Assembly: GCA_902514865.1 (NCBI GenBank)
Contig: CABXSI010000003.1
Span: forward strand, 1-42,099
Direction of reading: 5' to 3'
DNA length: 42,099 nucleotides
DNA from: an uncultured SAR116 cluster alpha proteobacterium
Lineage (GTDB): Bacteria > Pseudomonadota > Alphaproteobacteria > Puniceispirillales > Marisalimonadaceae
In this document: one piece after another, positions 22,408-40,521 of the stretch
How the letters are laid out: each line of letters begins with the position of its first letter
Position numbering within the stretch: the stretch's first letter is position 1
Program-made: the position numbers and the translations under genes
The notes under the pieces: generated by a model
Seen by the model: only the letters and a program-made list of their open reading frames with translations
Told to the model about the DNA's origin: nothing
Database searches by the model: none

Positions 22408-23433
22408 ATGAACGATGTACTGAGTAAATTCTTTAAACATGAGTATTCTAGCACACCAATTTGGTTTTTAAGACAAGCAGGTAGACACATTCCAGAGTAC
22501 TTTGAAATACGCAACAAAGCGGATAATTTTATAGACTTCTGTTTAAACACAAAATTGATTGTTGAAAGCACAAAGCTACCGTTAAAATATTACGATTTAG
22601 ACGCTGCAATTGTGTTTTCAGATATATTGATGATCCCATGGGCAATGAACAGAAAAGTAGATTTTATTAAGGGTGTTGGTCCAAAATTACAACCTATGGT
22701 TCCTGATGAAACAAAAATTTTGAAAAATATGAATATTTTTCAGAAGCTTGAACCTTTAGAAATGTCAATATCTATCTTAAGAAATGAATTACCTCAATCT
22801 ACAAGTTTAATAGGTTTTGCTGGTGCACCATGGACACTAGCTTGTTATATGATTGAAGGTCAGAGTAGTAAAGATTTTATAAATACCAGAAAAGCTCTAT
22901 GGAATTCAAATAAATGGTTTATGGAATTAATTGATACATTATCTATTTATGTTGCAGAAAAACTTGAAATGCAAGCCAACGCAGGTGCAGATGTTTTAAT
23001 GTTATTTGACTCTTGGTCTCATATGATACCTAATAATTTTTTTAAGGAGTGTGCTATTAATCCCACTGCTAAAATTATTAGTATTTTAAAATCGAAAAAC
23101 ATCACAAAACCAATAATTGGTTTTCCTTTTAAGGCAGGTTCGTCTCTAGTAGATTATTCGTATGAAAGCAATGTTGATTGTATAGCATTGGATTGGACTG
23201 TAAATTTAAATTGGATAAATAAAAATTTAAACCCTTCAGTAGCTATCCAGGGAAACCTCGATCCAGCTTCACTTATTCCATTTAATAGTTATCATTTAGA
23301 TAATATTGTTCTTTCTATTTTAAACGTTATGAAAGATAATAGATTTATCTTTAGTGTTGGTCATGGATTAACTCCGGATTGTAAAATTAAAAATGTCAGA
23401 AAAGTTATTGATATTGTTAGAAACTATAAATGA
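22408..23433 (+). CDS. hemE: Uroporphyrinogen decarboxylase
   Basis: HemE removes four carboxyl groups from uroporphyrinogen III to give coproporphyrinogen III in heme synthesis. The N-terminal signature reads PIWFLRQAGRHIPEY. The usual RQAGRY has His in place of Tyr here. The second signature region is IGFAGAPWTLACYMIEG, and the end has FSVGHGLTPD. Length 341 is normal. It is the first gene to the right of the proposed origin. The stop is TGA, and the hemJ remnant follows within 9 bases. Confidence 0.96.
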   Translation: MNDVLSKFFKHEYSSTPIWFLRQAGRHIPEYFEIRNKADNFIDFCLNTKLIVESTKLPLKYYDLDAAIVFSDILMIPWAMNRKVDFIKGVGPKLQPMVPDETKILKNMNIFQKLEPLEMSISILRNELPQSTSLIGFAGAPWTLACYMIEGQSSKDFINTRKALWNSNKWFMELIDTLSIYVAEKLEMQANAGADVLMLFDSWSHMIPNNFFKECAINPTAKIISILKSKNITKPIIGFPFKAGSSLVDYSYESNVDCIALDWTVNLNWINKNLNPSVAIQGNLDPASLIPFNSYHLDNIVLSILNVMKDNRFIFSVGHGLTPDCKIKNVRKVIDIVRNYK

Positions 23434-23442
23434 AAAAAATAA

Positions 23443-23882
23443 TTGTATTATGATATAATAAAATCTATACACCTTGTGGCTGTTATATCTTGAATGGTTG
23501 GTTTGTTATATTTACCTAGGCTTTTCGTGTATCACAATGATAATGAATATTCTAGTCATATAGATATTACTTTTCTTTTAATGGAGTATCGTTTATTAAA
23601 ATATATAATGAAACCTGCTTTAATAGCCACTTACGCCTTTGGTTTTATTTTAATTTATGAAAATAATTATCTCTTACACGAAAATTATTTTTTACTGAAG
23701 TTATTATTAATTTTATTCTTACTCTGTTTCATATTTATTTATCTATTCTTTACAAAGACTTTAAAAAAGGCTATAAATGTAAAAGAACTAAGTTTTACAG
23801 AATAATTAACGAAATACCAACTATATTAATGATTGCAATTATTATACTAGTTATAGTTAGGCCTAATCTACAAAGTACTTAG
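23443..23882 (+). pseudogene. hemJ: hemJ (protoporphyrinogen oxidase) with in-frame UGA and -1 frameshift
   Basis: HemJ is a four-helix membrane protein oxidising protoporphyrinogen IX in heme synthesis. The track ORF 23494-23805 is only its middle. Upstream in the same frame, from a TTG at 23443, the translation is IHLVAVIS*MVGLLYLPRLF, where family members have Trp at the stop (TGA 23491-23493). Downstream the frame ends at 23805, but the -1 frame gives KFYRIINEIPTILMIAII...VRP, the family C-terminus, ending TAG 23880-23882. The frames join at A AAA AAG (23763-23769). Joined length would be 146 residues, normal for HemJ. The conserved YHG-type His of the penultimate helix also seems lost (LLCFIF). 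The simplest reading is a decaying gene; sequence error or recoding are alternatives. Confidence 0.8.
23763..23769 (+). other. A AAA AAG heptamer at the hemJ frame switch
   Basis: The heptamer is in the correct 0-frame phase (TTA AAA AAG). A -1 slip here continues as GGC TAT AAA TGT..., which is exactly the frame encoding the conserved HemJ C-terminus. A AAA AAG is the slippery sequence used in E. coli dnaX. It is equally a 6-A homopolymer where a natural or technical one-base deletion would be expected. Confidence 0.5.
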
Positions 23883-23905: not shown

Positions 23906-25165
23906 ATGCACTTAAAAGAATTAAAAGCTAAAAATCCTTCTGATTTGTTAATCTATGCAGAAAGCCTAGACATTGAAAACGCTAGTACTTTAAGAAAACA
24001 AGATATGATGTTTGCTTGTCTAAAAAAGTTAGCGTCAAATGATATTGGAATTTATGGTGACGGTGTATTAGAGGTTTTATCTGATGGATTTGGTTTTTTA
24101 AGATCCCCAGAATCCAATTATTTAGCTGGTCCTGATGATATTTATATATCGCCCAGTCAAGTTAGAAAGTTTGGATTAAGAACTGGAGACACTGTAGAAG
24201 GCCAAATTAGAGCTCCAAAGGATGGAGAAAGATATTTTGCCTTATTGAAAGTTGAAACTATAAACTTTGAATCACCAGAAGCAGTGAGGCATCGGATTAA
24301 CTTTGACAATTTAACACCTCTTTATCCTCAACAAAAAATTAATTTCGAAACTGAGTTTGATCCCAACAATAAGGACATAACAACTAGAGTAGTTGAGATG
24401 GTTGCCCCGATGGGTAAAGGTCAACGTGGTCTCATTGTTGCGCCTCCCAGAACTGGAAAAACAATGATGCTTCAATCAGTAGCACAAGCAATATCAAAAA
24501 ATCATCCAGAAATTTATTTAATTGTACTATTAATCGATGAAAGACCAGAGGAAGTTACAGATATGCAAAGGTCAGTCAATGGTGAAGTTATAAGTTCTAC
24601 ATTTGACGAACCAGCATCAAGACATGTTCAAGTAACAGATATGGTAATTGAAAAAGCAAAAAGATTAGTTGAACATAAACGCGATGTAGTGATTTTATTA
24701 GACTCAATTACAAGACTTGCTAGGGCTTACAATACAGTGATCCCTTCAAGTGGTAAAGTCTTAACAGGAGGCGTGGACGCTAACGCTCTGCAAAGGCCTA
24801 AGCGTTTTTTTGGCGCTGCTAGAAACATTGAAGATGGAGGTTCTCTTACAATTATTGCGACGGCATTAGTAGAAACTGGTTCTAGAATGGATGAAGTGAT
24901 TTTTGAAGAATTTAAGGGAACTGGAAATAGTGAAGTTATTCTTGACAGAAAACTTTCTGACAAACGGACTTTTCCTGCAATTGATGTTACAAAATCTGGG
25001 ACTAGGAAAGAGGAGTTGCTTGTAGAAAAAGACACTTTGTCTAGAATGTGGGTGCTAAGAAGGATTTTAATGCAAATGGGGCCAGTGGAAGCAATGGATT
25101 TTTTATCAGATAAATTAAAGCAGAGCAAATCTAATGAAGATTTTTTTCGAGCAATGAATAAATAA
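23906..25165 (+). CDS. rho: Transcription termination factor Rho
   Basis: Rho is the hexameric RNA helicase that ends untranslated transcripts. The N-terminal Rho domain starts [15 protein letters not shown], the cold-shock-like RNA-binding domain includes [20 protein letters not shown], and the ATPase has Walker [27 protein letters not shown], Walker [17 protein letters not shown] and the Q/R-loop region [20 protein letters not shown]. Length 419 is typical. It starts 23 bases after the hemJ remnant; the hemE-hemJ-rho order is standard in alphaproteobacteria. Confidence 0.98.
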
Positions 25166-35367: not shown

Positions 35368-36339
35368 TTAGAATGTTGCTTTAATTGTAAGTTTTGAAAC
35401 AGATCCAGAATCTGCTGTTGTACCTGCACCAGCACCTGTTCCAACTTTATAATCATAATCTTCTACATTTAAATAAGCAGTCAATCCAGATGCAATTGTA
35501 TATGCAACTTCGGCGCCTGTATTTGTATATTCTTCGTTAGAAGTACTATCATCAGTATCTACAGTATGTACAGTGAATGTCATAGCATCAGAAACTTTAA
35601 ATTGAACTGAAGCTCCTGTTGATTCTTCATCTGTGTTAGATGCTTCATAAGTTGCCTGAGAAACAGCGGCAGTTATGTTACCTGAACCAACCTTAACACC
35701 AATAACTTGTGAGTCAATGTCTTGTGTAGAATTTTCAGTTGTACCACTTGCACCACCTATAGTTATAGAAGCGCCTCCAGCAGTCATACCATACTTGGCT
35801 CCAAATTGAGTAGAATCTGCGGAACCTGCTGCACCAGAATCTCGATAAGATATACCAGCAGTCAATCCACCCATTGCTGGAAGATGATATGCAACCTTAC
35901 TAGCATCGCCTTCCAAACCTGCAATGTCTGCATTTAATATTGTGAGTGTGTCTACACCTGTAGCATAGATTTCTTCAGCAGGTAAGTCTGTACTAGCAAC
36001 ACCATAATTGTCACCAACACCATCGTTACCACCAAGGACTAATTTACCAAAGCCACCAGAAATAGACAATGATGATTCATTAATAGCAGAATCTGTATCG
36101 TCTGATTCTACTTCAGTAACCATACCAATAGTTAGACCGCTGTCAGTTTTGTTAGAAAATTTAATAGCAATTTCTGAATCATTAGTCATTGTTGTTCCAT
36201 CATTAGCTGTAATATCAGAGCTAGTTGATGTATACTTCCACTCATAATAACCAGAAATAGAAACATCAGCTATAGCAGTATTTGCTGATAGTGTAGCAGC
36301 TGCAGCAAGTGCAGTTGTGCTTAAAAGTAATTTACGCAT
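35368..36339 (-). CDS. Outer-membrane porin (alphaproteobacterial Porin_4 type)
   Basis: A classic Sec signal peptide (MRKLLLSTTALAAAATLS, cleavage likely after AIA before DVSISG) precedes a ~300-residue beta-barrel with alternating hydrophobic strands, Gly/Asp/Ser/Thr-rich loops, and the terminal aromatic residue of an outer-membrane protein (KLTIKATF). Acidic loops (DSDDTDSAINE-like) suggest a marine, acidic protein. AAGGGG lies 7 bases before the ATG. It stands alone with its own terminator and a long 5' region containing palindromes. Substrate and ion preference cannot be told. Its GC content and codon choice look somewhat higher than its neighbours, as expected for a highly expressed gene. 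Confidence 0.9.
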   Translation of the reverse strand: MRKLLLSTTALAAAATLSANTAIADVSISGYYEWKYTSTSSDITANDGTTMTNDSEIAIKFSNKTDSGLTIGMVTEVESDDTDSAINESSLSISGGFGKLVLGGNDGVGDNYGVASTDLPAEEIYATGVDTLTILNADIAGLEGDASKVAYHLPAMGGLTAGISYRDSGAAGSADSTQFGAKYGMTAGGASITIGGASGTTENSTQDIDSQVIGVKVGSGNITAAVSQATYEASNTDEESTGASVQFKVSDAMTFTVHTVDTDDSTSNEEYTNTGAEVAYTIASGLTAYLNVEDYDYKVGTGAGAGTTADSGSVSKLTIKATF

Positions 36340-39181: not shown

Positions 39182-40342
39182 TTGAATAAAGATATTTTTA
39201 AAGAAAAAATGGGCAGTGATTTCTTCAACACTTACTTTGGTAAAAAGTTTTTATATAAGCCAAATTTTGTAAACGACATAGAAAATACAATGAACATTAC
39301 GATTTTGGAAAATTTGCTTTCAAAAACAAATATTTGGAACAATAAAAATTTCCTAATGATGCTTGATCAAAAGAAACTAAATTATATAGATTATTCTTCT
39401 TTAGATTTAGATATTACAGGTAATAACTATAGGCCAAATATAGATAAAGTTCAAAGATTAGTATCTAAAGGTGCTTCTATTATTTTGAATGATATAGAAA
39501 AACAAAATTCAGGACTTTTGAAAATAGCATCTGAATTACAAAAATTAACAAATGGAAGATGCCAAGGTAACTTATATTTTTCAATGGCCAGCCATAAAGC
39601 TTTTGGACCTCATTTTGATATGCATGATGTTTTCGCAATACACTTTGAAGGAGAAAAAATATGGAACATATACGAGAATACCGAAAAAGACCCTGTTAAT
39701 CATAGTATTTTCAATTTGAGCATTGAAGAACGGACTAGAAAAGCTGGCAATCTTGTAGAACAAATAACATTAAAACCCGGAGATCTATTATACATACCTA
39801 GAGGACAATTTCATGATGCATTAGCTTCTAAAAATGGAGCTATACACATTGCATTTGGTTTGACATATTTCAAACCCGTAGATTTAATGTCAAGTTTATG
39901 GGAAAAATTCATCTTAAACGATTTCATGAGAAGTGACGTGAAAAAAGATTCTAACAAAGAAGATTTAAAAACTTTACTAACTAAATTCTCTAAAGAAATG
40001 AATTCTATACTCAATTCAGAAGAAACATTAGCGGTATTAACAAACAATATTAAAAATTGGCCTTATGAAATCAAAGAATATTCAATAAAAGACATTGTTT
40101 TTAATGGTATTAAATATGATGTAGATCAGTCAGTAAAGTTTGAAAAAAAAGGGGAAAAGTCATATTTGAAAAATGGGAATAATATAGTTGAGGTTCCTTA
40201 CAAGTTTTCTAAGTTAACAAAATATATTTTAGAAACTAAGTCAATTAACAACAAAGCTCTTTTCAAAACTTTCGAAAACACACCTACAGAAATAATTGAA
40301 GAATGTATAGAAAGTTTAAAAAAAATGAGAATTTTACACTAG
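39182..40342 (+). CDS. Cupin_4/JmjC-like putative 2-oxoglutarate/Fe(II) oxygenase
   Basis: The central domain has the JmjC/cupin metal site: GPHFDMHD (His144-x-Asp146), then FEGEKIWNIYE, and GDLLYIPRGQFHDALA (His211), giving the HxD...H triad of Fe(II)/2-oxoglutarate oxygenases. This resembles ribosomal-oxygenase-type proteins (RoxA/ycfD, NO66/MINA), which hydroxylate ribosomal proteins, but it is clearly divergent from RoxA and the substrate is unknown. The C-terminal ~130 residues look like a helical/winged dimerisation module (TKYILETKSINNKALFKTFE). Length 386. The start is TTG 39182 with GGAG 8 bases upstream. Confidence 0.8.
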   Translation: MNKDIFKEKMGSDFFNTYFGKKFLYKPNFVNDIENTMNITILENLLSKTNIWNNKNFLMMLDQKKLNYIDYSSLDLDITGNNYRPNIDKVQRLVSKGASIILNDIEKQNSGLLKIASELQKLTNGRCQGNLYFSMASHKAFGPHFDMHDVFAIHFEGEKIWNIYENTEKDPVNHSIFNLSIEERTRKAGNLVEQITLKPGDLLYIPRGQFHDALASKNGAIHIAFGLTYFKPVDLMSSLWEKFILNDFMRSDVKKDSNKEDLKTLLTKFSKEMNSILNSEETLAVLTNNIKNWPYEIKEYSIKDIVFNGIKYDVDQSVKFEKKGEKSYLKNGNNIVEVPYKFSKLTKYILETKSINNKALFKTFENTPTEIIEECIESLKKMRILH

Positions 40343-40446: not shown

Positions 40447-40521
40447 TGGCTGGGGCGGTAGGATTCGAACCTACGGTACACGAGATCAAAACCCGATGCC
40501 TTACCACTTGGCTACACCCCA
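40447..40521 (-). tRNA. tRNA-Gln (anticodon TTG)
   Basis: The minus-strand sequence folds as a full cloverleaf of 75 bases including encoded CCA. The acceptor stem TGGGGTG pairs with CGCCCCA (one G-U), the D-loop region is AGCCAAGTGGTAAGGC, the anticodon loop TTTTGAT gives TTG, and the T-arm carries GGTTCGAATCC. It resembles E. coli tRNA-Gln closely. A T-T mismatch at the top of the anticodon stem is slightly unusual. It follows ispE by 22 bases on the same strand. Confidence 0.96.

Follow-up and report, generated by a model that had tools for sequence, protein, structure and literature searches.

hemJ has probably been inactivated recently in a free-living SAR116 bacterium of the genus AAA536-G10, where it appears to persist in place as a unitary pseudogene. 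As its letters stand, the locus cannot encode a functional HemJ: a TGA replaces an invariant Trp codon near the start, and a missing base further downstream puts the remainder out of frame. We propose that the codon for Trp17 would have become TGA through a G-to-A change and that slippage by one base in a short run of T's would have broken the frame near codon 90, the two events having occurred in either order. hemJ is intact in the three nearest relatives. Judging by its HemE matches (89% to SCGC AAA536-G10, 88% to AG-390-L20, and 87% to AG-337-N21), the window, by which we mean the whole 42,099-nucleotide stretch analyzed here, appears to belong to the SAR116 cluster, order Puniceispirillales, and to the GTDB genus AAA536-G10; family names within the order are used as in PMC8547437. 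The window species is represented by one genome consensus (G000), which is 60.6% complete.

Two lesions interrupt hemJ

The hemE-hemJ-rho order of the window is common to its relatives (Table 1). hemJ starts with TTG, a start shared by close relatives and hence ancestral; positions 23443 to 23493 read TTG TAT TAT GAT ATA ATA AAA TCT ATA CAC CTT GTG GCT GTT ATA TCT TGA, and ATG GTT GGT follows directly. Translation from the TTG gives LYYDIIKSIHLVAVIS*MVGLLYLPRLFVYH... (in shorter form, LYYDIIKSIHLVAVIS*MVGLLYLPRLFVYHND...), the asterisk standing for the TGA. A first reading of this DNA, made from its letters alone (the sequence-only reading), had placed an in-frame UGA at a conserved Trp codon of hemJ, and it was right about the gene, the site, and the codon. 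Each of 46 intact HemJ proteins from the order has Trp at position 17, and Met18 beside it is invariant too; TGAATG is simply this conserved Trp17-Met18 pair (TGGATG) with one G changed and is no special signal. When we searched the genome with the PF03653 profile (cut-off, 34.2 bits), a single locus was matched, in two pieces: positions 23446 to 23784 (model positions 4 to 118; 96.4 bits), with one TGA inside, and positions 23670 to 23864 in another frame (model positions 81 to 145; 53.8 bits).

The same reading described the stop correctly but missed a second lesion. Alignment with the closest genomes, which it had proposed as a check, included hemJ of G013 (SCGC AAA536-G10), G022, G001, G027, G034, and G035; the relatives have TGG at codon 17, and the window has TGA and, in addition, lacks one base. 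The window reads ...TTAATTTTATTC... where G013 has TTAGTTTTTATTC, so that a run of five T's in G013 is a run of four in the window. The hemJ frame is thereby broken again about 220 bases downstream of the TGA: past this point the frame of the TGA soon stops, and the conserved C-terminus, roughly the last 40% of the gene, is readable in a shifted frame, out of register with the upstream part.

The window gene resembles the HemJ/PgdH2 protoporphyrinogen IX dehydrogenase family (PF03653 and TIGR00701, the latter of which annotates HemJ in an intact relative) in sequence, in length, and in its LLYLPRLFVYH and NExPT motifs. Unlike members of that family, it is interrupted twice and can encode no full HemJ: the family similarity is present, but an uninterrupted frame of ∼140 to 150 amino acids is absent, and Trp17 and the C-terminal NExPT motif do not occur in one product with the core.

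Table 1. Positions of the hemJ locus, its neighbors, and the divergent hemH genes (window coordinates unless a locus handle precedes them)
Feature	Position	Strand	Basis
hemE, intact, upstream neighbor, ends in TGA	22408..23433	+	TIGR01464
Probable hemJ pseudogene, entire remnant from its TTG start through the shifted-frame stop	23443..23882	+	PF03653 matches in two frames; alignment with intact relatives
hemJ codons 1-16, ancestral TTG start	23443..23490	+	
Lesion 1, TGA replacing the invariant Trp17 codon	23491..23493	+	
Residual 103-aa ORF, begins at conserved Met18 (ATG 23494), departs from the hemJ frame past lesion 2, stops at 23805	23494..23805	+	
Lesion 2, T run shortened by one base compared with the nearest relative; exact lost base not placeable	23711..23714	+	
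hemJ C-terminal part, shifted frame only; FHIYLS and NExPT motifs; TAG at 23880-23882	23715..23882	+	
rho, intact, downstream neighbor	23906..25165	+	99% identical to G013; name from established gene order and similarity
Divergent hemH	L110:9781-10899 (G007); L111:9792-10928 (G024)		
Viral hemH relative (IMGVR_UViG_3300025137_005831)	L232:2995-4107 = L233:5001-6113		

Clustering of the lesions and age of the probable loss

Alignment of the reading frames of G013 and G022 over the full window, which holds some 43 genes and 39.4 kb of coding sequence, showed hemJ to be the one split gene; the same test on 13.6 kb of a second contig of the genome (C9) revealed no broken gene. That the stop should fall on a Trp codon is weak evidence by itself, since TGG and TGA are one G-to-A step apart, a change that AT-rich genomes would readily supply. 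What makes error less likely is the clustering: a single gene of 440 bp carries both lesions, and there is none in the rest of the ∼50 kb compared.

Apart from the lesions, R112K is the sole change in the window hemJ at a position otherwise invariant in the genus, and several intact genomes show no fewer such changes. The loss is recent, since almost every other invariant residue can still be read in the gene. The hemJ branch leading to the window has a dN of 0.050, compared with 0.024 for G013 and 0.028 for G022, and an omega of 0.14 to 0.16 against 0.05 and 0.11 on the sister branches, few changes underlying these values; hemE has changed more slowly on the window branch than on either of the other two (omega, 0.04). 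A rough binomial test gives a P value of about 0.01 with the background share taken by eye from neighboring genes and 0.07 with an even share. These values tentatively suggest a weak relaxation of constraint on the window hemJ and a recent loss.

A JmjC_2/cupin gene (PF08007; positions 39182 to 40342, plus strand), adjoined by a tRNA-Gln gene (40447 to 40521), lies in a stretch that has no counterpart at the syntenic place of G013 or G022; it is likely a lineage-specific insertion.

Alternative explanations for the broken frame

The sequence-only reading left three options for the stop: a fresh nonsense mutation, a sequencing error, or local readthrough. The first fares best. Error in sequencing, amplification, or assembly, which would leave hemJ intact in the cell and put one wrong base and one wrong indel into the consensus, we consider unlikely. 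Both lesions are known from a single assembly consensus, indels in homopolymers are a common type of error, and, the two lesions aside, the gene looks nearly functional, which such an artifact would also give and which counts against a pseudogene. Single-cell and draft genomes do contain errors: alaS of the single-cell genome G013 (L229:2384-5057, on C4) is split into two overlapping frames, yet G022 has the gene whole and the part seen in G000 shows no break, so that the split is likely an error or a lesion in G013. An artifact would, however, have had to strike one short gene twice and to spare every other gene in the window and in the stretch of C9 compared, and hemJ decay is seen independently elsewhere in the genus (see below).

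Readings in which the broken locus still yields a protein fare far worse. UGA as a Trp codon genome-wide, an option that the sequence-only reading had already dismissed, is rejected because TGA is the ordinary stop of 8 of the 43 window genes, including hemE, where it lies at positions 23431 to 23433; these genes contain 105 TGG codons. Local recoding, with UGA read as Trp or another residue and with frameshifting or slippage restoring the C-terminus to give a little HemJ, would account for the continued conservation of core residues. It is nonetheless highly improbable: two independent recoding events would be required, the T run is just four bases long, an Rfam search gave no match around the site, TGA is an ordinary stop in the neighboring genes, and relatives encode the same protein without recoding. 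Readthrough of the stop alone is untenable as a source of HemJ, given the second break. Restart at the ATG that immediately follows the stop, which had been suggested as a source of truncated protein, would make the 103-amino-acid product a working, shortened HemJ or a protein with a new role, and we give this hardly any credence. The ATG is just the codon of conserved Met18, and the product lacks His10, Trp17, and every residue past the frameshift, among them the invariant Arg120, Asn123, Glu124, Pro126, and Thr127 (the NExPT motif).

It is also rather improbable that another known oxidase (a second hemJ, hemG, or hemY), encoded in the ∼40% of the genome that is unassembled, took over and left hemJ as debris. 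This explanation does not contradict a pseudogene; the two differ only over what replaced HemJ. Incompleteness of the genome leaves room for it, but none of these genes was found in the 60.6% that is assembled; the sequence-only reading had named such a second gene, with this locus as debris, as grounds against its own observation. Across 40 genomes of the genus, each genome with hemJ has it at a single locus, HemG (PF12724) is absent, and no HemY passes the TIGR00562 cut-off, either in the genus or in the set of genomes without hemJ; weak HemY matches are mainly N-terminal, which we read as what any FAD-binding protein would give.

hemJ across the genus and order

We searched 40 genomes of the genus. 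hemE is present in 30 of them, and each of these, but no other, has a hemJ match, which lies beside hemE: hemJ is intact in 28, broken in the window genome, and reduced to an old, decayed relic in G007. In G007 (88% complete), hemE and rho are intact and the relic lies between them (on C7, with hemE at 35569 and rho at 36002), the same position as hemJ in the window; it is much older than the window hemJ, with many stops, deletions, and substitutions. In the HemE tree, the two genomes group apart from one another, and the relatives around each have intact hemJ, which argues that their losses are independent. In G041, which belongs to another family of the order (86% complete), the order-wide search found no hemJ match; hemE and rho are retained as in the window, 149 bp apart, but hemJ has been deleted without a recognizable relic. 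Thus, within the limits of incomplete assemblies, at least two other species have lost hemJ independently, one by decay and one by deletion, and loss of hemJ seems to be recurrent in this free-living order, with at least three apparently independent cases.

Several other candidates were not counted. hemJ of G066, from another genus of the family, has stops and frame changes (C12:2047-2477; L209), on an N-rich contig of an assembly with 5% contamination; it may be another loss or just poor sequence. A run of N's lies inside hemJ of G088, and hemJ of G081 ends at a contig edge; neither represents a loss. The contig of G024 ends 7 bases upstream of rho. G082 has hemE without an adjacent hemJ, but its gene order differs and its contamination is 7%. 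Genomes that lack both hemE and hemJ (10 in the genus; G079, G080, G052, and G078 outside it) are uninformative, as the region itself may be missing. G079 and G080, order relatives that are 91% and 98% complete, gave no match to the hemJ or hemE query; their genus possibly reflects a larger loss of heme synthesis. The viral contigs searched contain neither the window hemJ stretch nor hemE, and the phage collection gave no match.

Possible heme synthesis without HemJ

HemJ is the only recognized protoporphyrinogen oxidase that we found in the genus AAA536-G10. A switch to the coproporphyrin route is not supported, since ChdC (PF06778) is absent from the 40 genus genomes. hemE is intact in all three species without a working hemJ (G000, G007, and G041), and hemH is intact in the two that were checked, G000 (C9:21324-22280) and G007. 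These lineages thus retain the decarboxylase that acts before the affected step and, in the two checked, the ferrochelatase that acts after it, but lack the known enzyme in the middle. Intact hemE and hemH would be odd if heme synthesis were being abandoned. In a survey of SAR116, all genera carried heme synthesis genes; its low-GC subclade, which includes AAA536-G10, shows streamlined features, a state tied to few pseudogenes (PMC8547437). Even host-restricted Rickettsia are described as using HemJ (PMC5615194). HemJ has been little characterized; a 2020 review described it as not yet purified and its cofactors as still to be identified (PMC7242693). Heme auxotrophy is reported to be common in aquatic and marine bacteria (PMC11139205).

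HemJ may be conditionally dispensable, either because oxidation takes another route, through a different enzyme or without any enzyme in oxic water, or because porphyrin or heme is taken up; a further hypothesis, which applies to the window only, is that the allele is deleterious and would not last. That several SAR116 lineages without HemJ have protoporphyrinogen IX oxidized by an unrecognized enzyme or non-enzymatically, or complete the pathway with imported porphyrins, is a tentative proposal. Given that the G007 relic is old and that G041 has lost the gene by deletion, at least some lineages without HemJ seem to persist. A gene may have been missed in genomes that are 61 to 88% complete, and so we offer oxidation by an unrecognized route only as a hypothesis. 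While a lone stop codon is an ordinary molecular event, recurrent loss of hemJ is moderately interesting: repeated loss of one step, with neighboring steps kept, offers a naturally occurring group of species for seeking a missing oxidase or porphyrin exchange between marine bacteria.

A divergent hemH in two genomes

G007, which lies on a different branch of the genus tree from the window, differs from it also in carrying a divergent, phage-like hemH, as does G024. The divergent gene occupies the same place, beside the 5-aminolevulinate synthase gene, and the G007 copy is 35% identical to the native hemH of the window genome. In that lineage, the native gene may have been displaced by a hemH of phage type. 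Marine phages, many of them related to pelagiphages, are known to carry ferrochelatases, which are potential auxiliary metabolic genes (PMC11561400). The divergent hemH matches no PHROGs family; the best viral relative of the G007 gene, 87% identical, lies on a 48.9-kb IMG/VR contig, where it adjoins phage primase and DnaB-like helicase genes.
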